A stretch of 39,290 bases of DNA from a virus. The notes below the pieces were generated by a model. It saw nothing but the letters and a program-made list of their open reading frames with translations, made no database searches and had not been told where the DNA came from. Position numbers and translations under genes: made by a program. The DNA lies in IMG/VR virus record IMGVR_UViG_3300032278_000034, positions 1-39,290 of that record; one strand, 5' to 3'. Positions 20,500 to 34,689 of the stretch are shown in pieces; the stretch's first letter is position 1; each line of letters opens with the position of its first letter.

Positions 20500-23400
20500 A
20501 TGCCATTCGGGATGCCAACAGGCGGTGCGCTTTCAGGCATAAGGGGTCTGCAGCGTGGTGGGATAGGCGCAGAAGAGGAGCCCGGCTTTCTCCTCAGTCT
20601 CGCCCTGGCTCTCGACGCGCCCCGCAACTGGGCGTGGGGTGGCACAAGCAAGAAGCGAGCTACGGGCTGGGATCTCCTGCGGAAGATGGGCATCCGTGAC
20701 AAGCCGGGCAAGTTCGACCCTGTGGATGTCCTCGCCTTCGGGCTTGAGGTTGCGGGCGATCCGCTGACCTATCTTGGTGGGTTGGGTGGGCTGACGAAGG
20801 CCGGCAAGCTCGCGTCTAGTCTCGGCAAATCGGTAGGATCCAGGGCGGCTTCCACGGCGGCTATAAAGACTGCTCTGGAGGGTGCTGAGAAGTTCAACAT
20901 CAGGCAACTTCTGAAGGCTACGAAAGAGGTGGAGAAGGGTGGTGATCTTAAGAAGATAATGGGGGGGCTTGTAGACGCAGAGGGGAAGGCGGTCAAGCTC
21001 ACGGCAGGCGAGGCCACACGCTTCGAGAGGGGCGTGACGGCGGTCAAGCGAGCCCATGAGGCCCAGGCCAGGACAAAGACTCTAAAGACGCAACTGAACG
21101 AACTGGGAGCGTCTGAGATACTCGCTAAGAGCTGGAAGGCAGCGGCTCAGATGGATCTTCCGCAACGGAAGCTGTTGTCGCTGACGATCCCGTTCACCGA
21201 CATAGAAAAGGTGCTGATTAAGGGTGCGCCTGTCGTCGGTGCGATCCAGGCTACGGGGCAGGTTCTGGGCAAGTTCCCCCCCATCGCGGCAACGGGTCGT
21301 CTTATCTCGAACGCCTTCCAGCGTAGCGATGTTCTGCAGCCGTATATGCACGAGTACAAGCTCCAGGCGAGACAGATCCTGCGGGAGGGGGTCGAGAAGG
21401 AGACGGCCCTGGGTAAGGAGGCCGACGAGCTTTTCGGGTTAGAGCAGGCTCACCAGATCCAGGCGACAGAGAGGTACGCCCAGAAGGAGTACGGCAAGTC
21501 CGCTTCGGAGCTGACGGCAGAAGAGATACAGAAGAGATTCGATGACACGCTTCAGCGGTCCTATGTCACCGAAGCGGACTATACGAAGGAACAGTTCTTT
21601 GACGACATCCTGACGGGCAGGGAAGCCTATGGGATGGACCCCGTTATCCTCAAGAGGAAGAAAGAGCTTGAAGCGAATATAGTCGTTGAGGTTGAGAAGA
21701 TACGGGGCGCGTCGAGGAAGAAGTGGGCCGACGAACTCTACCGGCGGCTGGTGGGTCAACGGACGCGCAACAAGGAGAGGTCAGCAATACTCAAGGAGAG
21801 GGGGAGGTCGCTGTCTACACTGAAGACCCCTGCGATTGTCCAAATAGAGAAGCGTCTCTCGCAACTCCAGGGCAGATTCAGTGAGCGGCTCGATAACCTT
21901 GCGGTATCTGCCAAGAAGGACATTGAGACAGAGGTCGATAAACTTCTGGGGCTTCGGAAGGAACTTGACGATGCGGAGTTCGGGCTTGCAAAACAGAAGG
22001 TGGATCGAGACACCTTCCAGTCCGCACTTGACGAGGCGGTCCCTGGTTACAGATCCGTACTCAACGAGAAGGGAACTGCGTTCAGTCGGTTTGAGAAGAT
22101 CGCCGACGATGCCAAGTCGCTTGAGGATATCGCTGAGTCAAGAGGTCTGAGCGTCAAGGACTTGAGGGGGGAAGCCCAGGAGAACTTCAGGCAACTGAAG
22201 AAATCCAAGAGCAATGTCGAGAGATTGAAGGGCAATCTGAGTAAGGCCGAGGGCGATATAGAAGCTCAGATCGGGAGAATAGAAAAGAAGATGGGCGAGG
22301 ACGGCGCGTGGTCCGTCCCAACCGATGTGACGGCGACCATCACCTTCGCCGGCTACGACACCTTCGGCTCTGGTTTTACCCCTGGCTTCTTAAGACCCCA
22401 GGTTCTTATCGAGAATGACCCTGCAGTCATCAAGCACCTCAAGAAGAAGTATGGAAAAGACATCAAGGCCCGAGACATTGTGAACGAGCGTAAGGCTCTA
22501 ATCGAGGACATCAAGAAAGCGAAGAAGAACGACCCCAACCACATCTTCCACGCTTCACCTGAATGTCAGGCTTGTTCTCCAGCCGGCTTAAAAGCGCACA
22601 AAACCGGCCTGCGACCGCAGGACTACGAGACGGCAGAGGCAATCATCGACATCATAAAAGGCTCAGAGCCGCCCGTTGTGACGATTGAGAACCACTGGAA
22701 CTATACGACCAGGACGGTGACGAAGGGGAAGCATAAGGGGTATCAGCCGACCACGGAGATCAAGAGGGCTCTGGAGGAGGCTGGCTATGAAGTCGATATT
22801 AAGAAGATCCAGGCAGCGGACTATGGGTCTCCGAGTACACGCGAACGCCTGATCCTTCGGGCGGTAAAGCAAGAGGATCTTATAGTCGGTGGCGTAAAGA
22901 AGTCCTTTGACGAAGTATACCCGCTTCCTCAACCGACCGGCCAGGGTGACTGGTGGTCGGCTATCGCCCCGTTTATGCACGAGGCGAAGGATACTAAATT
23001 CGCTTTGGCTGCAACCAAGGTGGGTAGTAAAAGATTAGAGACTGACATCAAGGATCTGATTGCGGCTGGCAAGCTCTCTGAGCCGACCATGGAGGCTCCC
23101 GTCATCTATATGGGGCGGGATGCCATAGAGAGGTTTCCGAAGGGACACCCAAGAGCTGGAGAGGTAAAGCGGAACAGGGGCGGTATCAGGAATGCCGGGA
23201 CACCTGACAATCCCCAGGCTTCGCCGGCTCTTCTCAGGGGTAAAGCATCCGCAAGGGTCATCTTCCCTGACGGCCAGGGCGGTTATTACGCAAAAAGCCT
23301 CTCCCCCAGGCAGCTATCCGCTCTCATGGGATTTGGCGATGAGATGCCGATGGCTCTGCCCAAAGGCATAAGCTCAAAGGATGCAGCAGACATCTTGGGT

Positions 23401-25896
23401 AACGGGATGGCGGCAGCGACCACCAGAAATACTATCCAGCACCTTATCGAGCAGAGGATGGCTGCGGGGATTGTTCCCAAAATCGGAAAGAAGAGCAAGT
23501 TCCAGACTGCCGCCACCGAAGGGCAGCGGGAAAGTCTCAAGGCTCGATTCAGGCTCCGTGAGGCAGAGCTTAAGAAGAACCTCGAGGTCAAGAGGCTGGA
23601 GGGCGAGGTCGATAGGCTCCGTAACGAGTTGAGTCCAGACGACAAGATGCTCAGGCAGACAGCGGACGAGAACGCCCTCGCCGCCATCCCCGAGTTCAAG
23701 GAAATCAACGCCAATCCGCTCAAGGGAATTGACGAAACTCTTCCGAAGAAGGTGAAGGGTCGCCTCGCACAAAAACTCCAGAAGGCTGTCCATGATAATG
23801 ACGGGATGATCCAGCGGCTGGACGAGAACCTGGCTGACAACGATGCGTATGTGTCCCTGCTCCGTCCTGAATCTCAAGCCCTTGTGAAGCACCTCGACCA
23901 GGAGGTTGGAGAGCTTCTTGCGCGTCGCGTGGCTGTGGGTGCGACCAAGGAAGGGACCGTCATGGCTGCTCGCCTGCAGTCGATCACGAAGAACTACGCA
24001 GAGCGTGTGCTGACCTCTGATGCCCGGAAGTATATTGCCGCTCGAAGGGCTACCGATGGCAAGGGTGGCACGATGCTTGACCAGTATCACCGCCACATGG
24101 GCAGGTACTCGAAGAGTGCTATGTCGGCGAAGACAGGCGGGGATATACCGAGGCTCGACAGGTGGAGGGAGGAGTTTACCAGTCAGGTGAACAAGTTCTT
24201 CGAGAAGCTCCCAGGCGACCGCCCAGCTCAGTGGTTCAACAAGGACTTCTCGGTCACCTATCCCGGCAAGTACATCGGAGACGAGCGCAGCGTACTCAAC
24301 GCCACCTTCGTCACATCCCTGGTGAACGGCAAGGGCATCGTAAAGAAGATCCTCGAAAAGAACGCCCACGACTATGTGACCCTTGGCGACTTCTACATGG
24401 AGCATGGCATCCACCGTGTCACGGTCAAGGGCAAGGAGATCGTGCTGGGCGACAGCAAGGCCGCGAGAAAGGCCATGAAGGATGCGGGGCTGCTCGACAA
24501 GGGTATCCGCAACTCGCTTGCCGACGAGATACGGGGCGTGACCGTCAAGCTCGTGGACTCCGACGACCTGTCCCAGCTCGGCGAGATCTACGACAAGATG
24601 GTCCTGGGTCCGTTGCGCTGGTCCCTGACCCGTCCGTGGCTCCCGTTCCACCTTCGCAACTTCTCGACCAACATCTTCCTCAACTGGCTCGGCGGTGTCT
24701 CGAACCCGAAGTATTACAAGATGGCTGCAAGAGCTGTCTTTGAAAAAGACCCCAGTGAGTTAAAGAGGCTCACGGATATCGGTGTCCTCACGGGTGGCTG
24801 GTCCAGGGAGGCTGCGCGGGAACTCACCGAGCCGGGGCGAATCGACCTGTGGGCGAGGATGGAGAAGTGGTTCAAGAACAAATACCCCAAGGGCTCGAAG
24901 GCATGGAAGCAGTACACCAGCTTCGCCGAGGACATGGGCAGGGCGGCTCACTACTACGGGAAGAAGGCTGACGGCCTGACCGACTTCGAGGCTCTCGAGT
25001 CCGTCAACAAGTACCTGCTCGACTATTCGGACCTGACCAAGTTCGAGCGCCGTTACGGCAAGCGGATGTTCATGTTCTACAACTGGACCCGCAAGATGAT
25101 CCCCATGCTGACGAAGGAGTTCATCAGCAACCCCAGCAAGATGGCGGCTCTCACCAGGGGATCGGTGCAGCCCAGCCTGCTCAGGCCGGAGGGTCTCCCT
25201 TCGTACATCAAGCAGTCCTTCGCCCTGCCATTGCCGTGGAAGGACAAGCAGGGACGAGAGCAGTTCATCACCACCTTCGGCTCTCCCATCGAGGAGTTCC
25301 GCAAGTTCGACGTTTCGCAGCGTGAGGGTGGGCTGGCCGGCATAGGCTCCGAGCTGGCGAGGACTATCATCGGGCAGATGACACCGCCGCTCAAGCAGGC
25401 TGCTGAGATCGCGGCTGGCAAGGACTTCTTCTACCGCAAGCCTATCCAGGAATCGGACAGGGTGAAGCAGATGTTCGGGCTTGAGAAGCTCCTGCCCGGC
25501 CTGCGTACCGATGTTCTCAAGAGCGGGAAGACGAGGCTTAGAGCGGACCCGGATATGCTCTACGCCCTGCGTCAGTCGCCGTTCTCCAGGGTCATCTCCA
25601 CCCTGCAGAAGCTCGGCGACCCTGACCGTGACATTTCCGACAAGCTCTTCGCCACCCTGAGCGGCATCAACGTCGCGAGGTTCTACAAGGAGACGCAGGC
25701 TCCACGAAGCCTGGTCGATATGCTCAAGCGGAAGCTGAAGCTCGAGATCCCCGAAGGGATGGTCCGCAAGTTCGAGACGATCTACCCGACCGAGGCCGGC
25801 AAGAAGAACGCCGAGGTCATGCGGATGATGGATATTCTCCGTTCTGCGGAGAAGCGTCAGAGGTCGGTGTATCAGACTTCTGGTGGTAAGCTCTAG
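20500..25896 (+). CDS. Giant polyvalent ejection-type protein with embedded C5 cytosine DNA methyltransferase
   Basis: This is a 1798-residue protein, the largest here. Residues 30-100 are like the starts of other giant phage internal proteins (LSLALDAPRNWAWGG, AGDPLTYLGGLGG). Coiled coils fill about 420-610. A complete C5 methyltransferase domain follows: motif I FAGYDTFGSGF at 617-627, motif IV SPECQACS with catalytic Cys689, motif VI ENHWNY at 730-735, motif VIII DYGSPSTRERL at 774-784, a target-recognition stretch, and motifs IX/X with MGFGDEMP and GNGM at about 967-970. More coiled coil comes next. The C-terminal part has RPWLPFHLRNFSTN at 1378-1391 and YLLDYSDLTKFERRYGKRM near 1505-1523, which is typical of large polyvalent proteins of phages. 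PEC replaces PPC in motif IV, a known variant. It is probably carried in the virion and ejected with DNA. Confidence 0.85.
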   Translation: MPFGMPTGGALSGIRGLQRGGIGAEEEPGFLLSLALALDAPRNWAWGGTSKKRATGWDLLRKMGIRDKPGKFDPVDVLAFGLEVAGDPLTYLGGLGGLTKAGKLASSLGKSVGSRAASTAAIKTALEGAEKFNIRQLLKATKEVEKGGDLKKIMGGLVDAEGKAVKLTAGEATRFERGVTAVKRAHEAQARTKTLKTQLNELGASEILAKSWKAAAQMDLPQRKLLSLTIPFTDIEKVLIKGAPVVGAIQATGQVLGKFPPIAATGRLISNAFQRSDVLQPYMHEYKLQARQILREGVEKETALGKEADELFGLEQAHQIQATERYAQKEYGKSASELTAEEIQKRFDDTLQRSYVTEADYTKEQFFDDILTGREAYGMDPVILKRKKELEANIVVEVEKIRGASRKKWADELYRRLVGQRTRNKERSAILKERGRSLSTLKTPAIVQIEKRLSQLQGRFSERLDNLAVSAKKDIETEVDKLLGLRKELDDAEFGLAKQKVDRDTFQSALDEAVPGYRSVLNEKGTAFSRFEKIADDAKSLEDIAESRGLSVKDLRGEAQENFRQLKKSKSNVERLKGNLSKAEGDIEAQIGRIEKKMGEDGAWSVPTDVTATITFAGYDTFGSGFTPGFLRPQVLIENDPAVIKHLKKKYGKDIKARDIVNERKALIEDIKKAKKNDPNHIFHASPECQACSPAGLKAHKTGLRPQDYETAEAIIDIIKGSEPPVVTIENHWNYTTRTVTKGKHKGYQPTTEIKRALEEAGYEVDIKKIQAADYGSPSTRERLILRAVKQEDLIVGGVKKSFDEVYPLPQPTGQGDWWSAIAPFMHEAKDTKFALAATKVGSKRLETDIKDLIAAGKLSEPTMEAPVIYMGRDAIERFPKGHPRAGEVKRNRGGIRNAGTPDNPQASPALLRGKASARVIFPDGQGGYYAKSLSPRQLSALMGFGDEMPMALPKGISSKDAADILGNGMAAATTRNTIQHLIEQRMAAGIVPKIGKKSKFQTAATEGQRESLKARFRLREAELKKNLEVKRLEGEVDRLRNELSPDDKMLRQTADENALAAIPEFKEINANPLKGIDETLPKKVKGRLAQKLQKAVHDNDGMIQRLDENLADNDAYVSLLRPESQALVKHLDQEVGELLARRVAVGATKEGTVMAARLQSITKNYAERVLTSDARKYIAARRATDGKGGTMLDQYHRHMGRYSKSAMSAKTGGDIPRLDRWREEFTSQVNKFFEKLPGDRPAQWFNKDFSVTYPGKYIGDERSVLNATFVTSLVNGKGIVKKILEKNAHDYVTLGDFYMEHGIHRVTVKGKEIVLGDSKAARKAMKDAGLLDKGIRNSLADEIRGVTVKLVDSDDLSQLGEIYDKMVLGPLRWSLTRPWLPFHLRNFSTNIFLNWLGGVSNPKYYKMAARAVFEKDPSELKRLTDIGVLTGGWSREAARELTEPGRIDLWARMEKWFKNKYPKGSKAWKQYTSFAEDMGRAAHYYGKKADGLTDFEALESVNKYLLDYSDLTKFERRYGKRMFMFYNWTRKMIPMLTKEFISNPSKMAALTRGSVQPSLLRPEGLPSYIKQSFALPLPWKDKQGREQFITTFGSPIEEFRKFDVSQREGGLAGIGSELARTIIGQMTPPLKQAAEIAAGKDFFYRKPIQESDRVKQMFGLEKLLPGLRTDVLKSGKTRLRADPDMLYALRQSPFSRVISTLQKLGDPDRDISDKLFATLSGINVARFYKETQAPRSLVDMLKRKLKLEIPEGMVRKFETIYPTEAGKKNAEVMRMMDILRSAEKRQRSVYQTSGGKL

Positions 25897-33036: not shown

Positions 33037-33396
33037 ATGAAAACAATATGGTCTATCGAGCGCATCCCAATGACGCTCAACAAATACATTCGGTCTCATT
33101 GGGCTGTCCGCAAGAAAGAGGTGACGACCTGGAGGCTGCTGCTCAGGTCGCAGCACCAGGCTCCTGTGCTGGTGGAGGGCAAGGTCAAGCTCGTGATCAA
33201 GGTCTTCCGCTCTCGCCGGCAGGATCCCGACAACGCGGTAGGGTCCATGAAGCCGCTGATAGATGCGATCAACAGGGAGGGGTGGCTGGTGGACGACGAC
33301 CTGGCCCACCTCGAGCTTCATGTAAGAGAGTTCAAATCGAAGAGAGTTGATGAACACACGGAGATAGAATGGGAACTTCTGAAGGAGAACGATTAA
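33037..33396 (+). CDS. rusA: RusA-family Holliday junction resolvase
   Basis: This 119-residue protein has the family features in order: a 'P-T-N-x-Y-x-R-x-HW' opening (PMTLNKYIRSHW, 11-22), DPDN at 63-66, the lysine in SMKPLIDAI (about 70-78), and the late DDD at 86-88. These acidic residues and lysine make the metal site that cuts Holliday junctions. Length is normal. No Shine-Dalgarno is visible, because the T-tract of a terminator ends only 5 bases before the ATG; a later ATG at 33070 is in frame but would lose the opening residues. It ends in the AAGGAGA that serves the next gene. Confidence 0.87.
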   Translation: MKTIWSIERIPMTLNKYIRSHWAVRKKEVTTWRLLLRSQHQAPVLVEGKVKLVIKVFRSRRQDPDNAVGSMKPLIDAINREGWLVDDDLAHLELHVREFKSKRVDEHTEIEWELLKEND

Positions 33397-33905
33397 ATGA
33401 GTTGGCATTATTCGCAGGAGTTGGAGGGGGCATTCTTGCCTCCGAGTATTTGCTCGGACATAGGGTTGTCTGCGCCGTCGAAAACGAGAGCTTCTGCCAG
33501 GAAGTCCTCCTGCAAAGACAGCGCGACGGACTCCTCCCCTGCTTCCCCATCTGGGACGATGCAAAAACCTTCGACGGAAAACCTTGGCGAGGGTACATCG
33601 ACATCGTCAGCTCCGGTTTCCCATGTACTCCGTGGTCGTGTGCAGGTCTTCAGAGAGGGGCAGACGATGAGCGAGATCTTTGGGACGACACAATGCGAAT
33701 CGTTCGCGAGGTTCGACCCAGAATCGTCCACCTTGAGAACGTACCCGGACTTGTTTCCGGTGGACATCTCGTCCCTATCCTCGAAGACCTTGCCGAAGCA
33801 CGGTATGATGCGAGCTGGTGTGTGTTACCTGCTGCCTCGCCCCTGGTGGGCGGCAACCATATACGCAAGCGGTGGTGGTGCCGAGCGACCTTGGCTGGAG
33901 AGTGA
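33369..33905 (+). CDS. C5 cytosine methyltransferase, catalytic part (motifs I-VIII)
   Basis: This 178-residue protein has motif I FAGVGGG (15-21), a motif II-like VVCAVENE, motif IV GFPCTPWS with catalytic Cys86, motif VI ENV (123-125) and a motif VIII-like HIRKRWWC near the end. No target-recognition part or motif IX/X is present; it stops at 33905. The missing part lies in the +1 frame (33397-34689), and 509 bases are shared. The start overlaps the RusA end, with no strong ribosome site of its own at 33369; a TTG at 33402 is another possible start after the AAGGAGA. It may act as a two-subunit enzyme (as known for M.AquI), or be joined by frameshifting. Confidence 0.83.
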   Translation: MGTSEGERLNELALFAGVGGGILASEYLLGHRVVCAVENESFCQEVLLQRQRDGLLPCFPIWDDAKTFDGKPWRGYIDIVSSGFPCTPWSCAGLQRGADDERDLWDDTMRIVREVRPRIVHLENVPGLVSGGHLVPILEDLAEARYDASWCVLPAASPLVGGNHIRKRWWCRATLAGE

Positions 33906-34689
33906 CGCAGAGGACAACCCCTGGCCGACACCGCGGGCTTGCGAAGGCAGCAACCCGCCAATGGGTAAAGAAAAGAAGCACCACGGATTGACCAAGGTCG
34001 TCAAGGACAACCCGTTCCCCACGCCGACGATGATGGACGGTCGCCGCAAGGGCAAAGCCTGCAGCTACGAGGAGTGGTTGAAGAGGTTCGAGGAACTGAA
34101 GAAGCGAGGGGTCAACCTGCACTACAATCTGAACGTCGCGGTGGACAGATTCCCCACGCCGACCGCTGGCGATAGCAAGGCGAGTGGAGCGGCAGGCTAT
34201 TCGACTGCAAGTGGAAGACATTCAGGCACGACCCTGACGGACAAGGTCGTCCGGTCTGCGAACTCCGAGACACCGAGGGAGGAAGAGTCCTGGCCGACAC
34301 CCGCCGCTACGGACGGGAAGGGGTCAGGGAAAACGGGTGAACCCCGGGACCGCTTGGACTATGCGGTCGAGCGCGGTGAAACCAAGACGAAGGTCTACGA
34401 CAAGCCCCCGCCAGGTGGAGGGCAACTCAGCGCCGACTGGACCGACTGGCTTGTCGGCTTTCCTATCCTCTGGTCCTCCCCCGACCCGCTCCCTGTATCG
34501 GCAGTTCAGGAGTGGCTTGCCATCACCCTGCTCCACGACTGGTGGGCAGAGGAACCGCCGATCCCGAGGACCATAGAAAGAGGCGGCGACAAACATCGTT
34601 GCCGCCGCCTCAAGGGGATAGGTAACGCACAGGTTCCGCTATGTGCTGCGGTAGCCTATACGATACTGGAGATTCAGCAGGAAGCCTGA
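33397..34689 (+). CDS. C5 cytosine methyltransferase, target-recognition/motif X part, overprinted N-terminus
   Basis: This 430-residue protein has its ATG immediately after the RusA stop, 8 bases after a strong AAGGAGA, the best ribosome site here. It begins MSWHYSQELEGAF and continues Ser/Thr/Pro-rich for about 100 residues, where it is read in a different frame from the methyltransferase part. From about 98 it shows a well-known phage pattern: SFARFDPESSTLRTY, LPKHGMMRAG, several WPTP/FPTP units, then a QLSADWTDWLVGFPILW, and GNAQVPLCAAVAY (about 409-421), the motif X end. I know this MSWxxSQ...WPTP...GNAQVP type as phage 'cytosine methyltransferase' entries. It supplies the TRD and motifs IX/X missing from the partner. 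Confidence 0.8.
   Translation: MSWHYSQELEGAFLPPSICSDIGLSAPSKTRASARKSSCKDSATDSSPASPSGTMQKPSTENLGEGTSTSSAPVSHVLRGRVQVFREGQTMSEIFGTTQCESFARFDPESSTLRTYPDLFPVDISSLSSKTLPKHGMMRAGVCYLLPRPWWAATIYASGGGAERPWLESDAEDNPWPTPRACEGSNPPMGKEKKHHGLTKVVKDNPFPTPTMMDGRRKGKACSYEEWLKRFEELKKRGVNLHYNLNVAVDRFPTPTAGDSKASGAAGYSTASGRHSGTTLTDKVVRSANSETPREEESWPTPAATDGKGSGKTGEPRDRLDYAVERGETKTKVYDKPPPGGGQLSADWTDWLVGFPILWSSPDPLPVSAVQEWLAITLLHDWWAEEPPIPRTIERGGDKHRCRRLKGIGNAQVPLCAAVAYTILEIQQEA

Follow-up and report, generated by a model that had tools for sequence, protein, structure and literature searches.

Two open reading frames on one strand of a phage record share 509 nt and are read in different frames across them; what does such a locus make, and do both readings matter? 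The record is the virus record IMGVR_UViG_3300032278_000034, taken over its full length (39290 bases; hereafter the window). It carries phage genes, among them terminase, portal, head protein, integrase and a RusA-like gene, and its structural region also holds a very long ORF (20500-25896, 1798 aa). With a probability of roughly 0.85, the locus encodes one C5 cytosine DNA methyltransferase whose two chains, alpha and beta, would be translated separately from one mRNA out of overprinted genes. A sequence-only reading of the window had proposed a C5 methyltransferase split over two genes that overlap by 509 bp in different frames, and both ORFs lie where it placed them. The features are as follows:

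33037..33396, + strand: RusA-like resolvase gene, upstream (PHROG_1682, 2e-11)
33360..33363, + strand: GGAG, possible alpha ribosome site, 5 nt before ATG 33369 (sequence)
33369..33905, + strand: alpha ORF, frame 0, 178 aa; catalytic half of a C5 cytosine methyltransferase, motifs I-VIII
33382..33388, + strand: AAGGAGA, beta ribosome site (sequence)
33397..34689, + strand: beta ORF, +1 frame, 430 aa, made up of an overprinted N-terminal part, the variable (xPTP) region and motifs IX and X
33397..33905, + strand: stretch read in both frames, 509 nt with the alpha stop included; both frames constrained
33411..33431, + strand: alpha motif I, FAGVGGG (sequence, alignment)
33615..33638, + strand: alpha motif IV, GFPCTPWS, catalytic Cys included (P85 and C86 do not vary among 26 alphas)
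33694..33834, + strand: beta overprinted core (CESFARFDPESSTLRTYPDLF...KTLPKHGMMRAG), from alignments; present in most betas, four strands predicted
33735..33743, + strand: alpha motif VI, ENV (LENV in the sequence; E123 and N124 invariant in 26 alphas)
33849..33878, + strand: alpha motif VIII, GGNHIRKRWW, the last motif before the stop (alignment)
33922..34420, + strand: variable region of beta, in which xPTP recurs; aligns to the corresponding xPTP region in L288 and L281, single-chain C5 methyltransferases
34423..34491, + strand: beta motif IX (LSADWTDWLVGFPILW), motif IX HMM, 34.4 bits
34588..34671, + strand: beta motif X (RRLKGIGNAQVPLCAAVAYTIL), motif X HMM, 35.2 bits

The beta start lies 28 nt past that of alpha, and the two ORFs overlap in part, the first 168 codons of beta lying over alpha in the +1 frame. 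The beta ATG directly adjoins the TAA of the RusA-like gene, which is probably co-transcribed with the methyltransferase pair. The AAGGAGA that the sequence-only reading had singled out as the better ribosome site is present before 33397, but alpha too has a plausible site in GGAG. From these two nearby sites ribosomes would start at ATG 33369 and at ATG 33397. Alpha would then bring the cofactor-binding and catalytic motifs I-VIII, and beta the recognition region and motifs IX and X, like the smaller subunit of M.AquI, as the two assemble into one enzyme. This enzyme would methylate phage DNA and protect it from host restriction, and the overlap would hold the two genes together and couple their expression.

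The identity of alpha is clear from its matches to Pfam PF00145 (DNA_methylase; 7e-26) and PHROG_363 (1e-43), and phmmer matches it to M.HhaI and M.HaeIII. The PF00145 hallmarks motif I (SAM-binding), motif IV (catalytic PC), motif VI (ENV) and motif VIII are all found on alpha, in agreement with the earlier description of a catalytic frame that carries these four motifs and stops at 33905. Motifs IX and X, which the family also requires, are both found on beta by HMMs (built in this analysis) and hhalign.

Beta matches PHROG_1008 (about 7e-18, residues 249-384), as do all 57 betas of alignment A7, the window's included. This ‘DNA methyltransferase’ entry is a sequence cluster and is silent on overlap or subunit role. 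PHROG_363 motif X gives a weak match (E 0.07, residues 377-424). No Pfam or NCBIfam family was found for beta, a Pfam search with beta C-termini returned nothing, and profile and single-sequence searches of the PDB gave no real sequence match; matches to designer PPR-protein chains were rejected, being due to a short helix repeated in those chains. In hhalign the beta profile aligns with Babsiella gp54 (L288; E 1.6e-14) and prophiGD91-2 gp27 (L281; E 4.7e-14) across the xPTP region and motifs IX and X. Since these single-chain enzymes have motifs I-VIII in the same chain and beta aligns with their C-terminal half, beta represents the C-terminal half of the enzyme. These alignments and the motif X HMM agree with the earlier assignment of the recognition region and motif X to the +1 frame; the variable xPTP region is the probable target recognition region.

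The N-terminal part of beta is less uniform. Residues 100-146, the core, are found in most members, and the first ~95 residues, absent from actinophage betas, look like an optional overprinted extension in the alignments. AlphaFold2 models of beta alone are poor, with pLDDT 53 in the window and 59 in L184, and this low confidence kept them out of fold searches. Four strands recur in both models, at about residues 103-145 within the overprinted part, with modest confidence. A poor model of beta alone would fit a chain that needs a partner, although it is not positive evidence for one.

Split C5 enzymes are known, so two chains can form an active enzyme: M.AquI and M.EcoHK31I are both two-polypeptide C5 methyltransferases (PMC3404938). 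M.AquI carries motifs I-VIII on one chain and the distal variable region with IX-X on the other; M.EcoHK31I carries I-VIII and X on one chain and IX on a separate smaller polypeptide (PMC3404938). The sequence-only reading had cited M.AquI as a precedent, aptly, as its motif partition is that of the window (PMC3404938). The likeness to M.AquI (CYCGRG) is one of published motif layout, not of sequence, and differs in that the window's beta starts within alpha and runs over most of it. M.EcoHK31I (YGGCCR), also compared by motif layout, resembles the window in having motif IX on a separate chain from I-VIII. Its small chain is encoded within the gene of the large chain, in another frame. Unlike M.EcoHK31I, the window has motif X on beta as well, its alpha ends after VIII, and its beta is larger than its alpha. 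Similar in layout are two annotated ‘DNA methyltransferase’ pairs, gp6/gp5 of Mycobacterium phage Firecracker and 067a/067b of Arthrobacter phage ArV1, in which alpha stops after VIII and a +1 beta carries IX and X; however, their overlaps are 209 and 266 nt and their betas are without the long N-terminal extension. The single-chain Babsiella gp54 and prophiGD91-2 gp27 align with alpha in their N-terminal half and with beta in their C-terminal half, but have all motifs in one frame. These single-frame enzymes keep +1 remnants of the beta N-terminal part (e.g., Babsiella gp55), which suggests that split and fused forms interconvert.

How widespread is this arrangement? Alpha profiles, single proteins and a beta profile served to collect loci from viral contigs and bacterial genomes, and annotated phages and plasmids supplied others. 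Motifs were then assigned to frames in 277 classified loci by HMMs for alpha (I-VIII), IX and X. Motif IX lies in the +1 frame relative to alpha in 266 of them, and no intact alpha contains it. It falls in frame 0 three times: in L038 (indel), L221 (deletion fusion) and L239 (separated beta ORF). Motif X lies in the alpha frame in 217 of the 277, where alpha runs the full length of the gene with beta nested inside, and this majority has the motif partition of M.EcoHK31I. The window belongs to a second type, of 47 loci, with both IX and X on the +1 ORF and an alpha that usually stops soon after VIII; the arrangement recurs in independent contigs (L023, L024, L184, L198-L200 and others). The remaining loci are incomplete or broken. 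In L239 and L250 beta is broken into pieces, and in L221 (1997-3010) a deletion has fused the alpha start with mid-beta in a single frame, leaving a broken copy. Homologues in E. coli are rare and prophage-like, and no EcoHK31I-like system was found among them.

The start of beta is conserved as well. It begins MSW in 201 of 266 loci, and in 176 of 224 relatives (e.g., L002, L007, L207) the alpha ATG stands 4 nt before the beta ATG (ATGAATGAG). At this distance one ribosome site can serve both frames, and the spacing may represent a dual-start arrangement. The window is unlike these relatives, its two starts being further apart and each having its own ribosome site.

Could the two frames instead be joined in translation? 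The sequence-only reading had allowed for either two subunits or a frameshift product, and of these the two subunits are favoured. A programmed +1 ribosomal frameshift near the alpha end would fuse alpha to downstream beta in a single canonical chain, and the window type does have the motifs in canonical order, I-VIII in frame 0 and then, in the +1 frame, the variable region, IX and X, such that one shift would restore a normal enzyme; single-frame versions are moreover known in actinophages (L281, L288). Against this, the 47 loci of the window type have no slippery site or stop context in common near the alpha end, and their alpha stop falls anywhere from 33 to over 500 nt past VIII. Fusion would drop motif X in the 217 loci that have it in alpha, and it has no need of beta's own conserved start and N-terminal coding constraint. 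Frameshifting is thus an unlikely account of the locus.

That N-terminal constraint has itself to be established, as the +1 reading of the 509 nt could be a by-product of alpha codons, with only alpha, and perhaps the non-overlapping 3' part of beta, of any importance. The conserved residues of alpha do by themselves yield some +1 similarity (shuffle means are above zero), and actinophage betas start late, without the first ~95 residues. The stop codons argue otherwise. Across ~150 fixed codons within motifs I-VIII, set by alpha coordinates, the +1 frame is stop-free in 160 of 163 relatives, nearly all of them fetched by alpha alone. Chance would leave 0.06 stop-free loci if they are recoded by base composition and 11 if codons are permuted within each gene, and composition predicts about 7.6 +1 stops per locus. 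In the +2 frame of the same 163 loci 1319 stops are observed against 1008-1064 expected. The three exceptions (L009, L011, L016) have betas that start later. These loci are related, and the counts are not independent events, although many phyla are covered. In HhaI-like single-chain controls +1 stops are about as frequent as expected (14 vs 13.0 in L285, 11 vs 10.6 in L287); a third, L283, has 3 vs 12.5 expected, so stop counts of single genes are noisy.

Codon choice in alpha points the same way. Among 87 non-redundant alphas the Gly under the beta W-G-M-M is GGG in 83 of 86, against a share of 17% among the set's Gly codons, the Asn under the beta ATG is AAT in 81 of 83 (49% in the set), and the Glu that follows this Asn is GAG in 79 of 82. 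These counts indicate that alpha codon choice is fixed by the beta start codon and by W-G-M-M. When the window beta was compared with those of 16 relatives, similarity exceeded the mean of synonymous-codon shuffles in every pair (z 0.7 to 5.3, the smallest values, 0.7-1.1, being those with L014, L017, L021 and L023), and the +2 frame was mostly not above the shuffle mean in these pairs. In random pairs the +2 frame, too, is above shuffles (mean z 2.3, against 4.3 for +1), so shared ancestry accounts for part of the +1 signal. The same DNA of phage MG592390 matches both frames, alpha at 53% (2e-40) and beta at 38% over residues 1-146 (4e-6), in line with the earlier remark that each frame resembles phage proteins across the shared stretch. 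Protein-level selection, the mark of an overprinted pair, is thus found in each frame of that stretch, and the by-product account is very unlikely. The earlier suggestion of long overprinting holds, the +1 frame being open and conserved beyond the demands of the alpha protein; stop-free frames, codon bias and shuffle tests alike contradict the prospect, raised with it, of homologues without second-frame conservation.

That the window gene is decaying or mis-assembled is highly improbable: its alpha is shorter than in most relatives and a decayed version does exist (L221), but the architecture is repeated in many independent contigs, the alpha motifs are intact and beta is open for 430 codons. 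A sequencing indel between 33620 and 33905 that restores one frame, which the sequence-only reading had named as a danger, is likewise excluded by that recurrence and by several further alpha-frame stops past 33905, with which one indel would be insufficient.

The two-chain enzyme with overprinted genes therefore stands as the preferred reading, and a further question is how motif X came to lie in different chains. A tree of 113 alphas requires 20 changes in its location between alpha and beta, of which well-supported branches force at least 7; the window falls in a supported group of 21 rows, 13 of which carry X on beta. For the majority type, nearly the same DNA supplies IX and X in two frames (median motif-end offset 50 nt). 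In the window type IX and X follow one another in sequence, 81-444 nt apart (180 in the window), a spacing that exceeds that of canonical enzymes, which is a point against the two-chain reading, and for which tandem duplication of a 3' segment was considered. Frame-changing indels, 3' duplication or recombination are possible routes by which X changed frame. A broader history can be offered tentatively, as one that is somewhat more doubtful than not: an old, phage-wide overprinted enzyme, spread over hundreds of phages and prophages, in which the N-terminal overprint of beta arose de novo as a functional domain over a catalytic domain and X switched frames at least 7 times.

On present sequence evidence the same arrangement is found in hundreds of other phages and prophages, a large and conserved natural case of overprinting. 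A literature description of this overlap in phages was not found among openly licensed papers. Few long same-strand overlaps have conserved proteins in both frames, and here both are probably parts of one enzyme. So large and diverse a family allows tests of how overlapping genes originate, of what holds a split enzyme together and of how a catalytic motif changes chain. There are practical consequences as well: an alpha ORF cloned by itself would give such a phage methyltransferase without motif IX, and one frame is often missing from records, sometimes the catalytic one. Both frames are annotated in the records of Paenibacillus phage Bloom, Firecracker and ArV1; those of Vibrio phage 1.236.O and Rctr197k have beta alone, as a hypothetical protein. 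Phages Rhynn, Rctr197k, S-H1 and Hades were rejected as controls, a nested +1 beta being present. Such a beta, with motif IX, is seen in L278 (Rhynn), L282 (Hades), L279 and L280, mycobacteriophage, cyanophage and other ‘DNA methylase’ genes that are each annotated as a single gene, in one frame only.

Third-frame ORFs resembling HNH endonucleases also occur inside some methyltransferase genes of the family, lying between IX and X in L040 (1505-2908) and L065 (1514-2740), and after VIII in L183 (2019-2600). They resemble ‘ShiLan’, a hidden HNH element in a phage methylase (PMC11855218). Beta stays open through the HNH-like ORF in L040 and L065, and long IX-X gaps are also seen in L208, L268 and L276.
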